DNA from: Campylobacter ureolyticus ACS-301-V-Sch3b
GTDB taxonomy: Bacteria > Campylobacterota > Campylobacteria > Campylobacterales > Campylobacteraceae
Reading direction: 5' to 3'
Length of the DNA: 64,000 bases
Assembly: GCF_000413435.1 (NCBI RefSeq)
Contig: NZ_KE340326.1
Span: 62,001-126,000 of the forward strand
The notes below the pieces were generated by a model, which was not told the DNA's origin, did not search any database, and was given only the letters and a program-made list of their open reading frames with translations. The position numbers were made by a program, and so were the translations under genes. Numbering within the stretch: position 1 is the stretch's first letter; each line of letters starts with the position of its first letter. This document shows positions 2,314-12,925 of the stretch, one piece after another.

Positions 2314-4143
2314 ATGAATAAAGCTTTAAAAAAAGATATACAAAAAATTTTAATCTCAGTAATATTTGTAATAGCCTCTTATTTGGTTTCAAATGCTGAG
2401 CTAAAAACTGTATTTTTAATCTTTGCATATTTGGTAGTTGGAGTTGAAATTTTAATAAAAGCTTGTAAAAGCTTAATAAACGGTGGCTTTTTAGATGAAA
2501 ATTTCTTGATGGGAATTGCTTCGATTGGGGCATTTTTCATCGGAGAACAAATCGAGGCTGTAGCGGTAATTTTATTTTATAAAATAGGCGTAGCGTTTGA
2601 AGATTACTCTATAAATCGCTCAAGAAAATCAATAAAAGAAGCCATGAGTATCGCACCTGATTATGCAAATTTAAAAACAAGTGATGGCTCAAAAAAAGTT
2701 GATCCTAATGATGTAAAACTTGGTGATATAATCGTCATAAAACCAGGTGAAAAAGTCCCACTTGATGGCATCATCATAAAAGGAAACTCAACCCTTGATA
2801 CATCAGCTCTAACTGGCGAATCACTTCCGCTTGAAGTTGGCAAAGATACTCAGATTTTAAGTGGAAGCGTAAATATAAACGGACTTTTAGAAGTAAAAGT
2901 AACAAGCGAGTTTGAGACTTCAACGGTTAGCAAAATTTTAGAGCTTGTTGAAGATGCGACTTCTAAAAAATCATCACAGGAAAAATTCATTACCAAATTT
3001 GCTAAAATTTACACCCCTATTGTAGTTGGTTTAGCTCTAATCATCGCATTTGTCGTGCCGATGTTTGTGGGGGATTTTAAAGAGTGGATTTATAAAGCAC
3101 TAATCTTTTTAGTAGTATCTTGCCCTTGTGCTTTGGTGGTTTCAGTTCCACTTAGCTTTTTTGGAGGAATTGGCGGGGCTAGTAAAAAAGGAATTTTGGT
3201 TAAAGGAAGTAATTATTTGCAAGTTTTAGCTAAGGTTAAAAACTTTGTATTTGATAAAACTGGAACTTTAACAAAAGGAAATTTTGTCCTTAAAGATGTG
3301 GTAAATGAGAGTTTTATAGATAAAGATGAGCTTTTAAAGTTATCAGCTTACGCACAAGCTCACAGCACCCATCCTATCGGACTTTCTATCATAAATACTT
3401 ATAATGAAAAAATCGATGAAAAAGCCGTAACAAATCTTGAAGAAATCCCAGGTTTTGGCATAAAAGCGACAATTTTTGGAAAAAATGTAAAAATAGGAAA
3501 TAAAAAGCTTTTAAGTGAGTTTGACTTGCCTGAGATTACACAAACTGCATCATTTGTGGCAGTTGATGGTAAATTTGCAGGGTATTTAACATTTGAAGAT
3601 GAACTAAGAGATGGCTCGGCCCAGCTTATAAAATGGCTTAAAGATAGTGGCATAAAAACAGCTATGCTAACAGGCGATAGATCAAAAGTTGCTAAAAATA
3701 TACAAGAAAAACTTGGCATTGATGAAGTTTTTGCTGAGCTTTTACCAGCTGATAAGCTAACAAATTTAGAAAAAATCATCGCCAAAAAGTCTAAAAATAG
3801 CACAGTTGCATATATCGGCGATGGGATAAATGATGCTCCGGTTTTAGCAAGAGCGGATGTTGGATTTTCCATGCTTGGAACGGACGCTGCCATGGAAGCA
3901 AGCGATATAGTCATAATGGATAATGATATCTCAAAAATCAAAACCGCGATGCTAATAGCTAAAAAAACCATAAGTATCGCCTCGCAAAACATCGTCTTTG
4001 CAATCGGCGTGAAAGTTTTAGTTATGATTTTAGCGATTTTCGGTTTAGCAAATATCTGGATGGCGATATTTGCTGATGTTGGAGTTACCATTTTGGCGAT
4101 ACTAAATTCTTTTAGAACTTTTTCTTATGCTAAAAAACTTTAA
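2314..4143 (+). CDS. zntA: Zn/Cd/Pb-exporting P1B-2-type ATPase
   Basis: 609-residue inner-membrane pump exporting divalent soft metals. Catalytic motifs are intact: TGES at T167-E169, the membrane metal site C270-P271-C272, the phosphorylated aspartate D314 in DKTGT, HP at H353-P354, and GDGIND from G502. D588 in FADVGV of the last helix matches the conserved aspartate of ZntA (D714), which separates Zn/Cd pumps from copper pumps. The N-terminus begins directly with membrane helices; the HMA domain is encoded by the preceding gene. Third gene of the ArsR-controlled operon. CadA would be an equally good name. Confidence 0.92.
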   Translation: MNKALKKDIQKILISVIFVIASYLVSNAELKTVFLIFAYLVVGVEILIKACKSLINGGFLDENFLMGIASIGAFFIGEQIEAVAVILFYKIGVAFEDYSINRSRKSIKEAMSIAPDYANLKTSDGSKKVDPNDVKLGDIIVIKPGEKVPLDGIIIKGNSTLDTSALTGESLPLEVGKDTQILSGSVNINGLLEVKVTSEFETSTVSKILELVEDATSKKSSQEKFITKFAKIYTPIVVGLALIIAFVVPMFVGDFKEWIYKALIFLVVSCPCALVVSVPLSFFGGIGGASKKGILVKGSNYLQVLAKVKNFVFDKTGTLTKGNFVLKDVVNESFIDKDELLKLSAYAQAHSTHPIGLSIINTYNEKIDEKAVTNLEEIPGFGIKATIFGKNVKIGNKKLLSEFDLPEITQTASFVAVDGKFAGYLTFEDELRDGSAQLIKWLKDSGIKTAMLTGDRSKVAKNIQEKLGIDEVFAELLPADKLTNLEKIIAKKSKNSTVAYIGDGINDAPVLARADVGFSMLGTDAAMEASDIVIMDNDISKIKTAMLIAKKTISIASQNIVFAIGVKVLVMILAIFGLANIWMAIFADVGVTILAILNSFRTFSYAKKL

Positions 4144-5063: not shown

Positions 5064-5534
5064 TTATTTATTAAGTGAGTTTTTTACCCATTTTTCAAGC
5101 TCGTTTTGACTGATATTTACATCAAATCTAACGCCATTTTTTAAAATTCCGCCTTTGCAAGAGTTTAAAAGTGCTAAATTTGTATCACCATACGAACTGC
5201 TTCCAGAAGTTACAAATGGGATTATAATTTTGCCATTAAAATCATATTTTTCTAAAAAAGAATTTATAATAACTGGGGCTTTATACCACCAAATCGGAAA
5301 TCCTAAAAAAATAGTATCGAATTTAGAAATGTCAATTTCACCCAAAATTTCAGGGCGTAAATTTTCTCTCATTTCGGTATTTGCCCTGCATTTGTCATCC
5401 CACCAATCCAGATCTTTGTCTATGTAAGGCACTTTTGGTTTTATTTCATAAATTTCACCATTTGTTATTTTGCTAATTTTTTTAGCTAAATTTGCAGTAT
5501 TTCCAGTTGCACTAAAATAAACTACTAATGTCAT
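5064..5534 (-). CDS. flavodoxin-family protein
   Basis: 156-residue flavodoxin-like fold that should bind FMN. The phosphate loop is FSATGNTANLA at residues 7-17, close to the classical T/S-x-T-G-N-T pattern, and the FMN-stacking regions FLGFPIWWYKAP and VTSGSSSYGD are clear. This subgroup (IYEIKPKVPY..DLDWWD) is usually annotated as an NAD(P)H- or flavin-linked oxidoreductase rather than the main electron-carrier flavodoxin FldA. A GGAGATAAA ribosome binding site precedes the start, and an 11-bp inverted repeat lies directly upstream. Confidence 0.88.
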   Translation of the reverse strand: MTLVVYFSATGNTANLAKKISKITNGEIYEIKPKVPYIDKDLDWWDDKCRANTEMRENLRPEILGEIDISKFDTIFLGFPIWWYKAPVIINSFLEKYDFNGKIIIPFVTSGSSSYGDTNLALLNSCKGGILKNGVRFDVNISQNELEKWVKNSLNK

Positions 5535-5594: not shown

Positions 5595-5882
5595 TTATTT
5601 ATCTTTTTTTGCAGGAGTTTTATTATCATAAAGTGAATTGTGATAAAATGCAAATCCAACCATTAAAGCTCCAGAAATAACATGTAAATTTTTAGAAAAT
5701 CTACTTCTTAATGAAAATGCACTTAAAACAGTAAGTCCCATTGAGACACTAAGACCAATTTTAGCAAGCTCTTTCTTGCTCATATCATCTAAAAAAGGTT
5801 TTTTAATCTCTGTTTTTGCTTTTTTCAAGCTCTCGTCTTCTTTTTCTATCAAATTTTGTTTTTGCTTTTGAGATTGTATCAT
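5595..5882 (-). CDS. small membrane protein at the end of the fez-like cluster
   Basis: 95 residues: a Lys/Glu/Gln-rich N-terminal half, then two hydrophobic segments (about 45-62 and 70-87) linked by the basic turn SLRSRFSKN. The second segment reads ISGALMVGFAFYH, similar to the glycine-rich segments in the other small proteins of this cluster. No known domain recognised. The start is uncertain: only a GGTG is visible upstream of the ATG, and the preceding 44-codon frame overlaps it by 80 bases. Probably co-transcribed with the upstream ATPase or driven from the Fur-box-like site at 5948. Confidence 0.65.
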   Translation of the reverse strand: MIQSQKQKQNLIEKEDESLKKAKTEIKKPFLDDMSKKELAKIGLSVSMGLTVLSAFSLRSRFSKNLHVISGALMVGFAFYHNSLYDNKTPAKKDK

Positions 5883-5937
5883 AAGTCATCACCGTTGTCG
5901 CAGTAAATAAAACTGCATTTAGTATAAAAAATGGCAT
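5803..5937 (-). CDS. possible 44-residue membrane peptide
   Basis: An ATG at 5937 with a well-placed AAGGAAATTAA leader opens a 44-codon frame. The product has an N-terminal hydrophobic helix (MPFFILNAVLFTATTVM) followed by a basic tail rich in Lys and Arg. It overlaps the start of the 95-residue gene in another frame. Its ribosome binding site is better than that of the longer gene, so it may be a real gene, or the two may be one protein split by a frameshift. Confidence 0.4.
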   Translation of the reverse strand: MPFFILNAVLFTATTVMTYDTISKAKTKFDRKRRRELEKSKNRD

Positions 5938-5947
5938 TTAATTTCCT

Positions 5948-5966
5948 TGTAATGATAATAAATGTC
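5948..5966. promoter_or_regulatory. Fur-box-like sequence
   Basis: Matches 14 of 19 positions of the E. coli Fur consensus, including an uninterrupted AATGATAAT, and lies just upstream of the small-gene pair at the end of the fez-like cluster. A/T-rich DNA makes such matches fairly common; its value is in co-occurring with two other sites in the same cluster. Confidence 0.35.
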
Positions 5967-5991
5967 ATTATATCATACTAAAGCTGTTTTA

Positions 5992-8085
5992 TTACTGAAT
6001 TTTCACACCCTTCATTGAATTTAAAAGAAGTCCTATCGTCGTTCCATTATGTAAAACCGCTGTTGAAATAGGACTTAATTTTCCTAAAGTTGCACCTAAA
6101 AGTATCGCTGAGTTTATTAAAACTGTGGCATTAAAATTTCTATCAACTAGTTTTAAAGTTTCATTTGCCAACTCTTTTAGTTGAGCAACTGCATAAATAT
6201 CATCTTTTAAAAGACTAATATCAGCAACTGCTCTTGCTATGTCAGCACCTCTTTTCATGCTTATTCCAACATTTGCTTTTGTTAAAGATGGTGCATCATT
6301 TATCCCATCGCCACAAAATACAATTTTTTTACCTTCCTTTACAAGAGTATCTATAACTTCTGCTTTTGAAGTTGGAAGCATATTTGCATACACCTTATCA
6401 ATGCCCAATAAATCTGCAACTTCTTTTGCTTTTGTTTCAATATCTCCTGTTAGCATAATCACTTCTTTAACGCCAAGTTCTTTTAACTTTTTAATAGTTT
6501 TTTTAGCATTTGAGCGAATTTCATCTTTCATAACAATAATTCCTAGAAGCTTTTTATCATAGCCAATATATAAAAGTGCATTTCCATCTTTTAGCTCATT
6601 TCTTATCTTTGTATCGTGCGCTTTAAATGAAATATTTTCATCATCTTCTAAAAAATGTCTATTTCCAATAACTACTTCTTTGCCATGAAAATGTGTTTTA
6701 AGCCCATGTGCCACAATAAACTCAACCTCTCCATGATGCATATGCTTAAATCCTTTTTTCTCTGCCGCACTTACAACAGCTTCTGCAATTGGATGAAAAT
6801 AGTGCTCTTCAGCACTTGCTGCAAGATTTAAAACATCATCTTTTTTCCAGTCTTTATCAAAGCTTATAATGTCAATAACTTCTAAAATTCCTCTTGTAAT
6901 GGTTCCTGTTTTGTCAAAAACAAAAGTATCTGCACTAGCTAGTTCTTCTAATGATTTAGCACCTTTTATAAGCATACCGTTATTTCCAGCTTTACTTATG
7001 CTTGATTTAAAAGCTACTGGAGTAGCAAGCTTTAAAGCACATGAATAATCAGCTTGTAAAACCGAAGCTACACTTGTCATATTTCTATTTATAAAGTATG
7101 ATAATCCAGCCAAACTTAAAGTTATAGGCACTAACTTATCGGCTAGTTTTGTTGCTTTTTGAGCTACATTAGATTTTTCATTGAGTGAGTTTTGTATGTA
7201 GTGGCGAATTCTTTCAGTACTTGTATCTTTTCCAGCAAGCTCAGTCCAAATTTTAATTTTACCATCTTCAACAACAGTTCCACTCATAACTCTATCACCA
7301 TGTTTTTTGGCAATAGCTTCTGCTTCGCCTGTCATAGAGGCTTCATTTACACTTGCATTTCCCTCTAATACATATCCATCTATTGCAATGCTTTCACCAC
7401 TTCCAACTACTACAATATCTCCAACTTTAATATCTTCTGTTTTTGTCTTAACAAGAGTTTTTTTACCATTTTTATTAACCTCAACCCAAGCTTCTTTGAT
7501 AGCTGGCTTTGCCAAAGCCTTAATTAAATCATCGCTTTTATGAGTTGTGCTCTCTTCAATATACTCGCCGATATTTAACATCAAATTTGTACTATTTGCA
7601 GCTAATAAATCTTTTCTTGAAAGTGAAATTCCAACTGCCATTGCCTCTAAAACTTTTGAAGTAAGACCGCTTTTTAAAAGCTCACTTAATCCATCTTTTA
7701 AAAGTGGATATGAGGCAAACAAGCTTATTAAGGTGTTTATATCTTTGTTTCTAATAATAGGCATAAGCCCAAGTGAAATTAAAGATTTTATAATCTCAGC
7801 TTTACTTATATCATCACTTTCATTTTCTAAAACTGGAATTTCAAGTTTTGAAATTTCACCTAGTAATTTATCTAAGTCTACATTTTCAAAATTTACAGTT
7901 ACGCTTTTTATAGTTTTATTAACTCTTGCATTTGTAACATTATCAAGTTTTAATATGGCATCTTCATAAGCTTTGATATCAGAATTTAAACTTAGCTCAG
8001 GCTGTAAAAACCTAACTCGGTTTTTACTTTTATGAAAAATTTTAAACTCTATATTATTGTCCTGCTTCAATTTCTGCTTTTGCAT
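5992..8085 (-). CDS. P1B-type ATPase with YSC metal-site motif, FezB-like (P1B-6 candidate)
   Basis: 697 residues from the ATG at 8085; the frame continues upstream inside the previous gene, but only from TTG codons. The ATPase core is complete: TGE at T252-E254, D391 in DKTGT, a HP motif (YFHPI), and GDGIND from G592. The usual CPC of the membrane metal site is replaced by YSCALK with C349. The N-terminus has no CxxC; instead the HMA-like fold starts with NRVRF (R23, R25). Arginine-rich N-termini and an SCA-type membrane motif are what I recall for P1B-6 pumps such as FezB, which load iron into ferrosomes. Iron as substrate is inference. Confidence 0.82.
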   Translation of the reverse strand: MQKQKLKQDNNIEFKIFHKSKNRVRFLQPELSLNSDIKAYEDAILKLDNVTNARVNKTIKSVTVNFENVDLDKLLGEISKLEIPVLENESDDISKAEIIKSLISLGLMPIIRNKDINTLISLFASYPLLKDGLSELLKSGLTSKVLEAMAVGISLSRKDLLAANSTNLMLNIGEYIEESTTHKSDDLIKALAKPAIKEAWVEVNKNGKKTLVKTKTEDIKVGDIVVVGSGESIAIDGYVLEGNASVNEASMTGEAEAIAKKHGDRVMSGTVVEDGKIKIWTELAGKDTSTERIRHYIQNSLNEKSNVAQKATKLADKLVPITLSLAGLSYFINRNMTSVASVLQADYSCALKLATPVAFKSSISKAGNNGMLIKGAKSLEELASADTFVFDKTGTITRGILEVIDIISFDKDWKKDDVLNLAASAEEHYFHPIAEAVVSAAEKKGFKHMHHGEVEFIVAHGLKTHFHGKEVVIGNRHFLEDDENISFKAHDTKIRNELKDGNALLYIGYDKKLLGIIVMKDEIRSNAKKTIKKLKELGVKEVIMLTGDIETKAKEVADLLGIDKVYANMLPTSKAEVIDTLVKEGKKIVFCGDGINDAPSLTKANVGISMKRGADIARAVADISLLKDDIYAVAQLKELANETLKLVDRNFNATVLINSAILLGATLGKLSPISTAVLHNGTTIGLLLNSMKGVKIQ

Positions 8086-8386
8086 CTTCAAATCTCTCTT
8101 TAAGCTCTTCTTTTCCTGCTTCAAAAAGTTTGCCCATTCTTACAATTGATTTAAAAATTGTCTGTTGTGCATTTTCATTAGTTAAAACATAAGCAGCTAT
8201 TGCTCCAACTACTGCACCTTGCAAAAAATTTGCAGAACTAAAATTTGGAAGTAAATTTCCTAAAATTCCTGAGTTTGGTTGATTTGAAGTTGCGTTTAAG
8301 CCTAGTTTTTCACCTGAGTTTATAGTCGCATCTTTAAACTCATTTTTTACTTCAACTTTTGCTTCTTTTATATATGGATTTGTCAT
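8054..8386 (-). CDS. small glycine-zipper membrane protein with helical tail
   Basis: 110 residues: a polar N-terminus, one hydrophobic glycine-rich segment (FLQGAVVGAIAAYVL, about residues 55-70) and a C-terminal amphipathic helix full of Glu and Lys (EELKERFEDAKAEIEAG). This layout resembles YtxH-like proteins and the small structural proteins of lipid-bounded organelles, but I cannot assign a family. It overlaps the upstream gene by ATGA and the FezB-like gene by 32 bases, so the set is translated together. Confidence 0.75.
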   Translation of the reverse strand: MTNPYIKEAKVEVKNEFKDATINSGEKLGLNATSNQPNSGILGNLLPNFSSANFLQGAVVGAIAAYVLTNENAQQTIFKSIVRMGKLFEAGKEELKERFEDAKAEIEAGQ

Positions 8387-8679
8387 TTTTCATTCTCCGT
8401 TTTTAATATATTTTCAATAGCTAAAATAAGTCCAATTCCTAGTGCCATATCAAAAGCAGCACTTAAATACTGCTTTTGAACAATATTATTTGATGCACTT
8501 ATTGATAATGATGTGGCGATACCACCTTCAATAGCAAATTTACTTATATTTTTGACTTTATCTTTTGAACTTGACTGCTTATTACTATAAAACTCAAGTG
8601 CAGTTGCAGTCATACCACCAAAAAGTGCCCCACTTATAAAATGATCGGCTGGAAGCCTACTAGTTGATGTTTTAAACAT
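8383..8679 (-). CDS. small membrane protein of the fez-like cluster
   Basis: 98 residues with two hydrophobic regions: FISGALFGGMTATALEFYS near residues 13-32 and a longer C-terminal stretch (SAAFDMALGIGLILAIENIL). The first carries the same F-[IL]-x-G-A-x-x-G pattern as its neighbours. Start and upstream stop share a base (TAATG), showing translational coupling. No known domain is recognised. Its position inside the cluster argues for a role in the membrane of the same structure. Confidence 0.75.
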   Translation of the reverse strand: MFKTSTSRLPADHFISGALFGGMTATALEFYSNKQSSSKDKVKNISKFAIEGGIATSLSISASNNIVQKQYLSAAFDMALGIGLILAIENILKTENEK

Positions 8680-9038
8680 TAATTATCTTCCTTTGGCTTA
8701 TTTGAAGTTCTAGTACTTCTAGTAGTCTTTTCTTTTAAATTTTCTACTTCTTTTGAAACAGCTTCTTTTGTTTTATTTACAGCTTTTTTAGCACCTTCTT
8801 TTACTTTTTCACCCTCTTTGATAACACTATCTTTTGCTTTTTCGCAATCTTTGATAATATCTTCTTTTGCTTCCTCGCAATCACACTTGCTATCACAAAC
8901 TTTATCTTTTAAATCGCTTGCAAACTCTTTTGTTTTTTGAGCCTTTTCTAAGATAGTATTTTTTATCTTGCTTTTATTGTTATAAGCGACTATTAATCCT
9001 GCTCCTACTGCAATACCTGCTATAAATGGAAGTGCCAT
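8679..9038 (-). CDS. YtxH-like membrane protein with Lys/Glu coiled coil
   Basis: 119 residues. One N-terminal membrane helix (LPFIAGIAVGAGLIVAY) is followed by about 95 residues of Lys/Glu/Asp-rich helix with no aromatic residues, the pattern of YtxH-like proteins. Three cysteines (near VCDSKCDC) and a fourth further on could bind metal. The frame extends to 9068, but GGAG lies in that extension, 7 bases before the ATG at 9038, so I start there. It sits between the ferritin-like gene and the 98-residue membrane gene. Confidence 0.75.
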   Translation of the reverse strand: MALPFIAGIAVGAGLIVAYNNKSKIKNTILEKAQKTKEFASDLKDKVCDSKCDCEEAKEDIIKDCEKAKDSVIKEGEKVKEGAKKAVNKTKEAVSKEVENLKEKTTRSTRTSNKPKEDN

Positions 9039-9057
9039 TTTTCTCTCCTTTAAAAAA

Positions 9058-9696
9058 TTATTTTTCATGACTATTGTTGTTTTTATCTAAAAGTTGATTT
9101 ACCAAAACACCGCCTAAAGCTCCTATTAACGCTCCGCCAATAAATGATATATTTGGATTTTGAAGCAAATTTAAAGCTTCATTTGCAGTCATTTTACCAT
9201 TTTTTAGTTTTTCTAATGCCTCGCTAAGCTCCTTTGTATAATTAAAGGCATTTGTGTCTTTATTTATATGTTTATCTTCTTTAAAATTTTGTTCGTCATC
9301 TTTAAAAGTTTCTAAATTTAACAAATTTTGCAAAGCTTTTTTATACTCGTTTGTAGAGGTTGCCCAGATTCTAAAATAAAGATCTTTTAAAGCTTCATTA
9401 TCTTCATTTGATGCAAGTTCGTTATATAAATTTTCACTTTCGATCTCATAAGATAATGCTTTAAAAATAGCATCATTTTTATCATTTATGTTATTTAAAT
9501 TTTCAAAGCTTATCTCTTTTAAAAAATCATTATTTTTACCATTTTGCAAATTTGCAGATTTTAAAAACTCACTTCCTGTTTTTTTAACATTTAAAATTTC
9601 AGTAAAAACAGGCTCATTAAATTTTAAAGCAAACTCCTCATACATTTTTATGCCCTGTTCTTCATGAATTATGGCATCATTTAACTCTTTTTTCAC
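9058..9696 (-). CDS. ferritin-like protein with C-terminal membrane anchor
   Basis: 212 residues. The first 130 form a helical ferritin/rubrerythrin-like region with candidate iron ligands in AIIHEEQGIKMYEEF and ALSYEIESENLYNELA. A charged linker follows, then a C-terminal glycine-zipper helix FIGGALIGALGGVLVNQLL. Soluble ferritins lack such an anchor, so this one should be tied to a membrane, as in membrane-bound ferritin-like proteins. Start is GTG, with AAAGGA upstream and a GTGA overlap with the previous gene. Ferritin-like identity is by pattern only; the ligands are not all certain. Confidence 0.7.
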   Translation of the reverse strand: MKKELNDAIIHEEQGIKMYEEFALKFNEPVFTEILNVKKTGSEFLKSANLQNGKNNDFLKEISFENLNNINDKNDAIFKALSYEIESENLYNELASNEDNEALKDLYFRIWATSTNEYKKALQNLLNLETFKDDEQNFKEDKHINKDTNAFNYTKELSEALEKLKNGKMTANEALNLLQNPNISFIGGALIGALGGVLVNQLLDKNNNSHEK

Positions 9697-10031
9697 GCTG
9701 CATCCTTTAATAATTGATTAAATTTATTAGCTGCGATATCTAAATCTTTTCCATTTAAAACATTATCCCAAAAACTTTTTGGAATGATATCTTTATCATA
9801 TTCTATTGTTAGAGACGCAACTGTTTTATTTAATCTTATATTTTTAATGCCTGCAAAGTTTTCAATGCTTGATTTAAAACTCTCACTAAAATTTGCAATC
9901 TCATCTTTACTAAAATTTTCCAACTCCTTCTTAATTGAAGGATTTATTCTAACTCTTAATCTGCCATTTATATGGTGGATTAAAGAGCAATATGACATAA
10001 TTTTAAGTATCATTTCAGATGTTATTTTCAA
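9693..10031 (-). CDS. HMA-like protein with arginine motif in place of CxxC
   Basis: 112 residues with the shape of an HMA_2-type domain: HHINGRLRVRIN near residues 19-30, and the second half-motif IKNIRLNKTVASLTIEYD. The GRLRVR stretch occupies the position where HMA domains have a CxxC metal site, and similar motifs (NRVRF, DRVRL) begin both ATPases of the cluster. TTG start supported by a strong AGGAGG six bases upstream; the in-frame ATGs lie further in. It probably interacts with the pumps, or handles hard metal or phosphate rather than thiophilic ions (inference). Confidence 0.75.
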   Translation of the reverse strand: MKITSEMILKIMSYCSLIHHINGRLRVRINPSIKKELENFSKDEIANFSESFKSSIENFAGIKNIRLNKTVASLTIEYDKDIIPKSFWDNVLNGKDLDIAANKFNQLLKDAA

Positions 10032-10092
10032 TTACTTCCTCCTATTATTTTTAGAATATTATCATATTTTTTATTTTAAACTAAACTTAAAA

Positions 10093-10111
10093 TCATTTAA
10101 AAATCATTATC
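10093..10111. promoter_or_regulatory. Fur-box-like sequence
   Basis: Twelve of 19 positions match the E. coli Fur consensus, with one perfect half (AATCATTATC). It lies in the only sizeable internal gap of the fez-like cluster, upstream of the HMA-like gene at 10031, and overlaps the last bases of the ATPase gene. Confidence 0.3.
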
Positions 10112-12236
10112 AAATTTTGACTTTGCTTGAATTGTATAAAATAGCCCCAGTATGAGCTAAGTGTATAAGTCCTGCAGCCGCTGGTGTAATAGTGCCAAAC
10201 ATTGCCAAAATAGAGCCTAATATATTTGTTGAAGTGCCTATTTTATAGTTTTGATTTGCCTTTTTTAAAGCCAAATTGCTTAAATCAAAAAGTTTTATTA
10301 TATCTTTTGGATCTGAGTTTGTTATAGCGATATTTGATACTTCTATAGCAGCCTCGCTTCCACCACTTGCAAAAGAAACACTAATATCTGCTCTACTCAT
10401 AGCCAAGGTATCATTTACACCATCTCCTATCATTAAAGTAACGCCTTTTTTTGAAAAAGAATTTACTATATTAGCTTTTTCATCAGGCATTAAATTTGGA
10501 TAAACAGCATCAAATTCAAACTCTTTTGCAAATTCATTTGCCACAAGTTCATCATCTCCGGTTAATAAGACTATTTTTTTAACACCTCTTTTTTTAAGCT
10601 CTAATATAGTTTCCTTACTTCCATCTCTTATCTCATGTGATATAGACAAGCATCCAACAAATTTAGAGTTTTTAGCTAAAAATATAATTGTTGCATGCTC
10701 ATTGTTTTTCAAAAAGTTACTATTATATGGAAGTCTTATTGAGTTATCGACCATAAATTTTTTATTTCCAAGTAGATATTTATTATTATTAAACTCGCCT
10801 TTAACTCCAAGTCCAACAACACTGCAACTATTTGAGCTTGCAGTTGGCTCAAAGCCTAAATTTTGGCAATATCCACTCACTGCTTTTGCAATTGGATGGG
10901 TATTTTTATGCTCTAAATTTGACAATACTTGAAAAAACTCATCCTCATCAAGTTTTGTTACATAGCTTAATACAACTGGAGTATTTGTAGTTAGTGTGCC
11001 TGTTTTATCAAAACAAACTATATCTGCTTTGCTCATTTTTTCTAAATGCTCACCACCTTTAATCAAAATTCCATTCTTTGCTGCACTTGCAATAGCCGAA
11101 CTAACAGCGGAACTTGCTGCTAAAATAGTAGCGCATGGACAACTCATAATAATCATTACACTAAAAGCATTAGTAAAAGAACCTGTTAAAAATAGTGTTG
11201 CAACTGTCATAAATGAGCCAAGTTTTAAAACTTTTTTAGCAAGCCTATCAGCCTCAATCTCACTTGCAGATTTTAAGCTTAAATGCTTCTCAACATCATT
11301 AATTACACGCGAAATATAAGTTTCGTTTCCAACAGCATTTACTTTTATATGAATTTTTCCCTCATTTAAGGTTGTATTTGCAAAAACACTACTTCCGATT
11401 TTTTTATAAATAGCTTGACTATAGCCATTTATAATGCTTTCATCAACATATCCCTCACCATATACAACCTCACCATCAACACAAATTTTTTCTCCATTCA
11501 CGCAAACTACGATATCGCCTTTTTTAACATCTTCTAAATTTGTTTGTATTTCGATATCACCATTTAAAACATATACTTGTTTAACATCCATTTCTATCAA
11601 ATTTTTAATTGCAATGCGAGATTTTTGCGCGGTATATTCTTCAAATAATCTAGAAGCCCTTAATATATAAATAACTTCAAAAGCAGCTGCTATCTCACCA
11701 CCAAAAATAGCTAAAAGTAAAGAAAATGCCATGAAAGTTTCAAGGCTAAATTTTTTATTCAAAATATCATTTTTAGCCTCATTTAAAAGTGGCAGTGCTG
11801 CAACTACGCTAAGACTTCCAAGTGCAATATTTGAAATGGCTGAAAAAGGGGTTGCTAAAATATGTTCTTTTATAAAAACAACTACCGCAACTACACTTAA
11901 ACCAACTATTTCATAAACTTTTCTTCTCCAAGTCTTTTTAGAGTGAGTTTTTTTACAAACCAAACACTCGCTGCAAGTTTTAAGCGAATTTTCAATCTTT
12001 TGTTTTGGTAAATTTGAAGAAATTTTAAAATACTCATAGAGTAAATCAAGTATATCGTTTAAAGAAATTTCCAAGGAATTAAATTTTATTATAAGCGAAT
12101 TGCAAGCTAAATTAAATCTTAAATCTATAACCTTATCTTCTAAAATTTGATTTATAAAGTCCTCATTTTTCTTTGTAAAAAGATCTGATTTAAGCCTAAC
12201 TCTATCTTTTAAATTTGATTTTATGACAATTGACAT
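10110..12236 (-). CDS. P1B-type ATPase with CPC site but degenerate TGE motif
   Basis: 708 residues. Start is the ATG at 12236, nine bases after AAGGAG; the longer TTG start would sit on the ribosome binding site. It keeps the membrane site C366-P367-C368, D410 in DKTGT, a THP motif and GDGVND from G604. The actuator-domain TGE is N270-G271-Y272, so the catalytic glutamate for dephosphorylation is missing. The N-terminus has DRVRL (R12, R14) instead of CxxC, and a CxxCxxC cluster at C88, C91 and C94. Paralogue of the other pump in the cluster. It may be slow, regulatory or repurposed. Overlaps the Fur-like gene by 16 bases. Confidence 0.8.
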   Translation of the reverse strand: MSIVIKSNLKDRVRLKSDLFTKKNEDFINQILEDKVIDLRFNLACNSLIIKFNSLEISLNDILDLLYEYFKISSNLPKQKIENSLKTCSECLVCKKTHSKKTWRRKVYEIVGLSVVAVVVFIKEHILATPFSAISNIALGSLSVVAALPLLNEAKNDILNKKFSLETFMAFSLLLAIFGGEIAAAFEVIYILRASRLFEEYTAQKSRIAIKNLIEMDVKQVYVLNGDIEIQTNLEDVKKGDIVVCVNGEKICVDGEVVYGEGYVDESIINGYSQAIYKKIGSSVFANTTLNEGKIHIKVNAVGNETYISRVINDVEKHLSLKSASEIEADRLAKKVLKLGSFMTVATLFLTGSFTNAFSVMIIMSCPCATILAASSAVSSAIASAAKNGILIKGGEHLEKMSKADIVCFDKTGTLTTNTPVVLSYVTKLDEDEFFQVLSNLEHKNTHPIAKAVSGYCQNLGFEPTASSNSCSVVGLGVKGEFNNNKYLLGNKKFMVDNSIRLPYNSNFLKNNEHATIIFLAKNSKFVGCLSISHEIRDGSKETILELKKRGVKKIVLLTGDDELVANEFAKEFEFDAVYPNLMPDEKANIVNSFSKKGVTLMIGDGVNDTLAMSRADISVSFASGGSEAAIEVSNIAITNSDPKDIIKLFDLSNLALKKANQNYKIGTSTNILGSILAMFGTITPAAAGLIHLAHTGAILYNSSKVKI

Positions 12237-12649
12237 TTTTTGCAAACTCCTTGTAAAATTAATATCCTACCTTCTACGTTAAACTCATATATTTTACCCA
12301 AATTTTGCTCTAAGCTTGAAAAACTCTCATCAATAAATTCAACTATTTTTCCACACTTTATGCAAACTAAATGATCATGTCTTAAACCATTTTCAAGCTC
12401 ATAATAAATAACATTCTTTAAATTTATGGATTTTATTAGATTTTTTTCTTCAAGTAAATTTATTATTTGATAAATGGTGCTTATATTAACACTATTTTTT
12501 TCTTGTTTTTCATAAATTTCTTTTATCATTTTTGCGCTTAAATGTTTGTTGTAAAAAAGAATTTTTATAATCGCAGATCGCGTAGGAAAATCCTTGCTAT
12601 CAGGAAAAATCATATTTAAAAATTTAGTAAAAACTCTATCATTAACCAT
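12221..12649 (-). CDS. Fur-family metal-dependent regulator
   Basis: 142 residues. The N-terminal winged helix ends in the recognition helix (ISTIYQIINLLEEKNLI), followed by the Fur dimer domain with RHDHLVCIKCGK and a C-terminal CKKC, giving the structural zinc site (two CxxC pairs). The usual His eight residues before the last Cys pair is Arg (GRILILQGVC), so one regulatory-metal ligand is missing and sensing may differ from classical Fur. First gene of the fez-like cluster and overlapping the next gene, so a local regulator is likely. A 17-bp inverted repeat lies directly upstream. Confidence 0.85.
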   Translation of the reverse strand: MVNDRVFTKFLNMIFPDSKDFPTRSAIIKILFYNKHLSAKMIKEIYEKQEKNSVNISTIYQIINLLEEKNLIKSINLKNVIYYELENGLRHDHLVCIKCGKIVEFIDESFSSLEQNLGKIYEFNVEGRILILQGVCKKCQLS

Positions 12650-12670
12650 ATTTTACCTTATTTAAACACA

Positions 12671-12713
12671 TATAAACTATAAATAAATTATTTTACTTTA
12701 TTTATAGTTTATA
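12671..12713. promoter_or_regulatory. 17-bp perfect inverted repeat, candidate operator of the Fur-like gene
   Basis: Arms TATAAACTATAAATAAA and TTTATTTATAGTTTATA are exact reverse complements separated by 9 bases. The element begins 21 bases upstream of the Fur-like start codon. It could be an operator for the regulator itself or a hairpin in the operon leader; no T-run follows it, so a terminator is less likely. Confidence 0.55.
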
Positions 12714-12856
12714 CGGTTTTTTAGTTGTGTTTTTTAGTTGGGCAATCTTTTCTCCGCTATCATTATAAAAACATTTTGATATTTGAAATCATTGTTTATA
12801 TATTCTTTTAAATTATATCTTTTAGGGACTTAAAAAAATATAAATAGTTGATAAAT

Positions 12857-12875
12857 GTTAATGATAATTTTTATT
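12857..12875. promoter_or_regulatory. Fur-box-like sequence upstream of the fez-like cluster
   Basis: GTTAATGATAATTTTTATT matches 15 of 19 positions of the E. coli Fur consensus, the best of three such sites in this cluster. It lies about 210 bases upstream of the first gene, in the space after the SbmA-like gene, and could mark the operon promoter with a long leader. Confidence 0.4.
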
Positions 12876-12925
12876 AAAATAATATTTTTAGCAAGTTGTT
12901 ATTTGTTTAAAAAATAGCTATAAAT

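Follow-up and report, generated by a model that had tools for sequence, protein, structure and literature searches.

A predicted fez-type (ferrosome) operon with a membrane-anchored ferritin-fold protein and a motif-altered P1B ATPase in Campylobacter ureolyticus

A stretch of 64,000 nucleotides from Campylobacter ureolyticus ACS-301-V-Sch3b (contig NZ_KE340326.1, positions 62,001 to 126,000; hereafter the window, 64 kb) holds a cluster of nine genes, all on the minus strand and running from 12649 to 5595, which we read as a candidate fez-type (ferrosome) operon. Ferrosomes are lipid-bounded compartments in which some bacteria store iron. The genes, in the order Fur-like, ATPase 1, HMA_2-like, ferritin-like, GZA, MamC-like, GZC, ATPase 2 and two-histidine protein, are given below with open reading frame (ORF) coordinates and lengths in amino acids (aa).

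12221..12649, minus strand: Fur-family regulator of 142 aa, at the head of the cluster (Pfam FUR, E 2.4e-19)
10110..12245, minus strand: ATPase 1, a CPC-type P1B ATPase with RVRLKS at its N-terminus and NGY replacing the catalytic TGE (TIGR01525, E 2.8e-127)
9693..10031, minus strand: HMA_2-like protein of 112 aa with an HxxGRxR motif, HHINGRLRVR (HMA_2, E 1.8e-5)
9058..9696, minus strand: ferritin-fold protein of 212 aa with a C-terminal glycine-zipper anchor (hydrophobic helix)
8679..9068, minus strand: GZA, 129 aa, an N-terminal glycine-zipper anchor followed by a long amphipathic tail rich in Lys and Glu
8383..8679, minus strand: MamC-like membrane protein of 98 aa (NCBIfam MamC, E 1.4e-3)
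8054..8386, minus strand: GZC, a glycine-zipper protein of 110 aa encoded just before ATPase 2 and FezA-like in its position
5992..8124, minus strand: ATPase 2, a FezB-type P1B ATPase with DYSC (YSC for CPC) and an HMA_2-like N-terminus carrying an Arg motif (NRVRF)
5595..5882, minus strand: membrane hairpin of 95 aa with two histidines (two-His protein), FezC/DUF4405-like (DUF4405, E 0.005, below cut-off)

The original prediction had placed a one-strand, overlapping cluster at 5595..12875, and every gene that it named was found there on the minus strand, including a second P1B ATPase with YSC for CPC and an N-terminal RVR, which is ATPase 2 with its NRVRF. Its three glycine-zipper membrane proteins are indeed three small Gly-rich membrane proteins, one of which is better described as a distant MamC relative, and the one or two further small membrane proteins that it expected came down to one (5882-5595). 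The cluster has only three gaps: 276 bp precede the Fur gene, 78 bp separate the ATPase 1 and HMA_2-like genes, and 109 bp precede the two-His gene. The remaining genes abut or overlap in ORF coordinates. The true starts are likely ATG codons that lie within the listed ORFs, 3 codons in for ATPase 1, 13 for ATPase 2 and 10 for GZA; near-identical homologues of the two ATPases are 708 aa (ATPase 1) and 697 aa (ATPase 2) long. A promoter and terminator scan returned 47 promoters against a mean of 40.3 by chance, which is little excess.

The order HMA_2-like, ferritin-like, GZA, MamC-like, GZC, ATPase 2 and two-His is kept in loci of many Campylobacterota, and an arrangement of seven genes that recurs in this way is more than chance. 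In an even draw of 200 Campylobacterota genomes, ATPase 2 (counted at E <= 1e-160) was present in 66. The companions were searched independently in the same genomes and called linked when they lay within 4 kb of ATPase 2, which was the case for all 65 MamC-like matches, 63 of the 65 two-His matches and 62 of the 75 ferritin-like matches. Both unlinked two-His matches belong to genomes whose short ATPase 2 loci sit on other contigs, and the 62 linked ferritin-like matches all scored 1e-38 or better, with the other 13 all weaker than 1e-12. Slot counts over 43 Campylobacterota loci place GZA in 41 and a Fur-family gene upstream in 18, with models built partly from the same loci and with one contig entered twice (L073/L078); the 200-genome linkage, and the comparison of Campylobacterota-only models with Rhodopseudomonas palustris described below, are the cleaner counts. 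Campylobacter concisus, C. rectus and C. sputorum were among the carriers within the best 120 of 4400 ATPase 2 homologues. The contig scan for further loci used the pattern DYSCALK plus a P-type motif, so that the DYSC common to its at least 80 loci is partly there by construction.

In a tree of 78 ATPases, built by a quick method with Shimodaira-Hasegawa-like approximate likelihood ratio (SH-aLRT) support and no bootstrap, ATPase 2 fell in a clade of 51 rows (SH-aLRT 99) together with ATPases from R. palustris, Firmicutes and five Desulfovibrionaceae. Outside it fell CopA and ZntA of E. coli and the ZntA-like pump encoded in the window. We take this FezB-type group to be the one labeled P1B-6. 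ATPase 2 retains TGE, DKTGT, GDGxND and HP. For R. palustris CGA009, ferrosomes are reported to be made from six fez genes, RPA2333-2338 (PMC12016538). The strain compared here was XCP (locus L127), in which six contiguous genes encode an HMA_2-like protein (118 aa), a protein of 103 aa, a MamC-like protein (160 aa), a protein of 199 aa, the ATPase (721 aa) and a protein of 126 aa. This ATPase is the single full-length match to ATPase 2 in XCP (9.5e-140), the next match (6.2e-70) covering the catalytic part only, and we infer that the six genes are orthologues of RPA2333-2338. Cross-check models built from Campylobacterota rows alone matched the XCP operon with the HMA_2-like protein (gene 1, 7.9e-13), the MamC-like protein (2.4e-5) and GZC (1.7e-19), and the two-His model matched a protein 3 kb upstream of the operon (5.9e-12), beside feoA and feoB.

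Examination of the smaller proteins as families showed that HMA_2 is matched at E <= 0.01 by 32 of the 33 HMA_2-like members, with G23, R24 and R26 invariant in the 33 rows. Two histidines are invariant in 31 rows of the two-His family, 15 members of which match DUF4405 at E <= 0.01; FezC is described as binding heme and resembling DUF4405 (PMC11334425), and the two-His protein is by its sequence of this FezC-type, DUF4405-like kind. By hhalign, the GZA anchor is related to the anchors of the ferritin-like protein (probability 93) and of GZC (94). Its Lys/Glu tail gave weak matches to apolipoprotein (3.9e-4) and synuclein (1.9e-3), both below cut-offs, which may reflect a resemblance to amphipathic membrane-coating helices or composition alone. 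NCBIfam MamC was matched at E <= 0.01 by 22 of 37 cassette proteins (best 3.2e-11, in Thiobaca; R. palustris 3.1e-5), with none of the 37 reaching the 100-bit cut-off (best 43.4 bits; window 18.9), and these profile matches make it likely that a ferrosome gene is distantly akin to MamC of magnetosomes. No statement of such kinship was found in the accessible portions of the literature naming both. Against FezA-like proteins, Campylobacterota-only rows gave hhalign probabilities of 42 (Desulfovibrionaceae) and 19 (Firmicutes) for GZC, and of 93 and 11 for GZA; GZC reached 89.6 on a mixed alignment.

The window was scanned with a 7-1-7 Fur-box consensus, TGATAATNATTATCA. Five Fur-box-like matches of 12/14 were found in the window, and simulated sequences gave 0 to 4 in total. 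Three of the five fall in the gaps between or before cluster genes, one in each gap:

12862..12876, no strand assigned: Fur-box-like site ahead of the Fur gene, 12/14 match to the consensus
10098..10112, no strand assigned: Fur-box-like site in the gap between ATPase 1 and the HMA_2-like gene, 12/14
5953..5967, no strand assigned: Fur-box-like site before the two-His gene, 12/14

Elsewhere, sites at p <= 0.05 occur upstream of the HMA_2-like gene in 15 of 48 loci, of the two-His gene in 6 of 40 and of the Fur gene in 3 of 18, the best being a 14/14 site in locus L035 at the same place before the two-His gene. The Fur-family protein itself scores 73 bits, under the 200-bit NCBIfam cut-offs for canonical Fur/PerR, and is therefore a divergent paralogue. 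Additionally, the R. palustris XCP operon is directly preceded by feoA, feoB and feoC together with the two-His homologue (L127:2560-6196). FeoB is an importer of ferrous iron, and in loci of at least 9 kb (n = 89; 1,374 kb in total) FeoB-like ORFs of >200 bits lie <=6 kb from a FezB-type ATPase in 16 of 89; the 11 of these 16 that were examined with Pfam were all FeoB. From one feoB per genome of 2-3 Mb, about one would be expected by chance in 1,374 kb. In the genome nearest to the window (G001), feoB is upstream of the same block of Fur gene, ATPase 1 and cassette. The feoB neighbors and the Fur-box-like sites point to iron.

These sites and neighbors would suit any iron system, and P1B pumps are generally exporters, as would be needed for Fur-controlled Fe(II) efflux or detoxification in the cytoplasmic membrane, with no compartment; ATPase 2 would then export to the periplasm, and excess iron would be buffered by the ferritin-fold protein. 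We regard this explanation as unlikely, however, because three or four small membrane proteins that share an anchor, plus a MamC-like protein, exceed what an exporter needs, and the R. palustris relatives are reported as ferrosome genes (PMC12016538, as above). It is quite improbable that the fez architecture serves another metal (Zn, Mn or Cu), whether as compartment or pump: the metal choice of the YSC site of ATPase 2 cannot be read from sequence and the CPC motif of ATPase 1 is usual in Cu/Zn pumps, but the feoB neighbors, the Fur-box-like sites, the ferritin-fold subunit and the iron role reported for the R. palustris genes all argue for iron.

ATPase 1 retains CPC, DKTGT and HP. In the best 120 of its 1744 homologues, NG[R/H/Y/T] replaces TGE in all 120, and the GDGxNDxP motif is without its Pro in the family, whereas 68 of 68 other P1B and KdpB sequences carry TGE (67) or SGE (1). 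Loss of the TGE glutamate should slow dephosphorylation in P-type ATPases. In the 78-ATPase tree the family forms its own clade of 10 rows (100) on the CopA/ZntA side (88), apart from the FezB clade, and this placement together with the TGE loss rules out ATPase 1 as a second FezB. At 1e-100 it was found in 7 of the 200 Campylobacterota genomes, and at 1e-120 in 7 of 104 from an Arcobacteraceae-like family. It stands directly upstream of the cassette in all 13 loci examined (7 of 7 Campylobacterota and 6 of 6, out of 7, Arcobacteraceae-like), so that the operon has a form with two ATPases, of which ATPase 1 is a member and not a chance neighbor. Two further loci considered as carriers, L050 and L051, both hold ordinary TGE pumps. 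ATPase 1 would be an optional member of the ferritin-bearing fez operon, which is widespread in Campylobacterota.

The ferritin-like protein has a four-helix ferritin fold by fold prediction and search. In 27 loci outside the window's lineage the diiron ligands are largely kept (E12 in 24, H41 in 21, E84 in 27 and H118 in 27), whereas in the Campylobacter lineage H41 is changed to Gly or Ala and H118 to Tyr in 16 of 16, so that a complete diiron ligand set is not present; E12, E84 and a new E117 are found in 16 of 16. Its anchor compares with that of GZA at an hhalign probability of 93 and with that of GZC at 83, and the slot 2 protein of the six-gene operon was considered as its source and rejected (hhalign 18, the anchor being nearer GZA/GZC). 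A ferritin-like ORF of 194 aa lies upstream of a Methylocystaceae FezB-type locus (L089) on the minus strand, opposite to the cassette, with 37% to the Arcobacter protein. A literature search for DUF2202 together with a P-type ATPase found none. Although ATPase 1 is without TGE and the Campylobacter ferritin-fold proteins are without two His, a decayed or repurposed fez operon, its compartment lost and these two proteins acting as sensors or scaffolds, is the least probable of the readings considered, since ATPase 2 keeps TGE, DKTGT, GDGxND and HP, the cassette genes are all intact and stay conserved at identities of two-thirds or less, and E12, E84 and E117 are kept in all 16.

Taken together, the clade of ATPase 2, the companion matches in R. 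palustris, and the feoB neighbors and Fur-box-like sites lead us to predict, at a probability of about 0.78, that the cluster is a fez-type (ferrosome) operon and a ferrosome builder, in a form extended by a ferritin-fold protein anchored in the membrane and by a second P1B ATPase of altered motif. Several results weigh against this assignment. Fur-box-like sites fell short of significance upstream of the HMA_2-like gene in 33 of 48 loci, of the two-His gene in 34 of 40 and of the Fur gene in 15 of 18, and no feoB is adjacent to the cluster in the window; slots 2 and 6 of R. palustris have no clear counterpart in the window cluster; the identification of GZC as FezA is uncertain, the hhalign evidence being split with GZA; Foldseek returned no PDB match for the ferritin-fold protein at E <= 0.001 (best 1.3e-3), and the loss of two His ligands in Campylobacter makes ferroxidase activity doubtful. 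The unreadable metal choice of the YSC site counts here as well.

On the same evidence the original proposal, a fez-type operon in a new version that has a ferritin-like member and two pumps, holds at the sequence level, and the synteny that it looked for in other Campylobacterota was found in the recurring seven-gene order. Phylogeny against FezB, by which it proposed to judge the two ATPases, bore it out for ATPase 2 and not for ATPase 1, whose own clade on the CopA/ZntA side corresponds to half of what it named as refuting. Its ferritin-like member stood as to fold and linkage, and the diiron site turned out to be altered in Campylobacter.

The product of the cluster is likely an iron compartment of a new bacterial type, the ferritin-fold subunit and an ATPase 1 without TGE being its putatively new parts. 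When iron is short, Fur would release expression of the operon, and GZC, GZA and the MamC-like protein, with their glycine-zipper membrane segments, would give a membrane compartment its shape and its protein content. Binding or transfer of the cargo would fall to two Arg-motif elements, the HMA_2-like protein and the N-terminus of ATPase 2, and ATPase 2 would move Fe(II) from the cytosol into the compartment. The two-His hairpin, by homology a DUF4405/FezC-like cytochrome, would carry electrons across the membrane and so set the redox state of the iron. The ferritin-fold domain, in the same membrane and probably on its cytosolic side, would catch iron and supply it to the pump or receive it from the pump, and ATPase 1, in which the phosphorylated Asp and CPC are kept and the dephosphorylation Glu is gone, would serve as a slow or regulatory pump. 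More tentatively, one may picture a hybrid organelle in Campylobacterota, that is, a ferrosome with its own anchor-sharing ferritin, a MamC relative as scaffold on the mineral side and, in some lineages, an ATPase without the dephosphorylation Glu as gate or sensor; if true, the protein cage and the lipid compartment, the two classic iron stores, would be united in one machine. The predicted operon would place a ferritin in the fez machinery, tie a ferrosome gene to MamC by sequence and add a P-type ATPase family without the textbook TGE motif. Furthermore, with the cassette in a third of the sampled Campylobacterota (66 of 200), cultivable hosts for ferrosome study would be at hand.

The gene upstream of the cluster in the window is SbmA/BacA. 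On its other side a Flavodoxin_4 gene (E 3e-50; 5064-5534, minus strand) starts 60 bp past the two-His gene on the same strand; among the mapped loci G001 alone has such a gene 3' of the cassette. Genes for Flavodoxin_4 and DUF4405 proteins are described as co-occurring in flavinylation clusters (PMC11334425). A third P1B ATPase, ZntA/CadA-like (TIGR01512, E 3.4e-152; 2314-4143, plus strand), lies 1.8 kb from the cluster. A periplasmic-looking protein (…AHFQMLYTP…), absent from the window, recurs by the cassette elsewhere (L054:2824-3642, L177:13682-14533 and L179:13409-14206) and is presumably a DUF4198 protein. In C. concisus-like loci ORFs of 475-487 aa separate ATPase 2 from the two-His gene, and in Arcobacter-like loci ORFs of 409-421 aa lie upstream; both were considered as iron transporters and set aside, their N-termini reading by eye like those of amino-acid or Na+/H+ transporters. 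On an Arcobacter plasmid (CP129951.1, L001) the seven-gene cassette lies about 4 kb from a tyrosine recombinase gene, and the operon may therefore move. An operon filed under 'Gammaproteobacteria bacterium isolate BB4' (L099) falls inside the Campylobacterota ATPase clade beside this plasmid copy, reflecting either transfer or a mis-binned contig, and the enterobacterium Kluyvera cryocrescens (L088) has genes for a FezB-type ATPase, an HMA_2-like protein and GZC.

To our knowledge, ferrosomes are known from few bacteria, Shewanella putrefaciens also among them. They are reported from Desulfovibrio magneticus, R. palustris and Clostridioides difficile, and a 2025 review asks whether other pathogens and commensals have them (PMC12574912). 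Campylobacterota may already be listed among the fez carriers in Grant et al. 2022 or Pi et al. 2023. The six-gene operon of R. palustris shares with the window the DYSC/Arg-motif FezB-type ATPase, an HMA_2-like first gene, a MamC-like gene and a GZC gene before the ATPase; it differs in having no ferritin-fold gene, in the 103-aa membrane protein of its slot 2, in a sixth gene that combines HMA_2 with a membrane segment, and in a two-His homologue that stands outside the six genes by feoAB. The Desulfovibrionaceae clusters (L096, L098, L102, L116 and L132), which we take to be the fezABC reported from D. magneticus, have an ATPase in the same larger clade, followed by a protein in which an HMA_2 domain is fused to a two-His hairpin; the two halves match the window's HMA_2-like and two-His proteins at hhalign probabilities of 97.5 and 91.8, whereas these fezABC-like clusters have three genes and no ferritin-fold, MamC-like or second ATPase gene. 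In C. difficile, fezAB is CD630_05910-05920 (PMC11651100) and the ferrosome genes are described as under Fur control (PMC12574912). Firmicutes loci of its layout, a small membrane protein and a DYSC ATPase, fall in the larger clade of ATPase 2, a comparison that stands in for the C. difficile sequence itself, and its fezAB differs from the window cluster in having a two-gene core only. The likeness of the cassette proteins to the magnetosome membrane protein MamC is one of profile match, none being at the family cut-off. Finally, the likeness to ferritin-like proteins of the DUF2202/rubrerythrin kind lies in the four-helix ferritin fold; the window protein differs from them by its C-terminal membrane anchor and by the His changes of the Campylobacter lineage.

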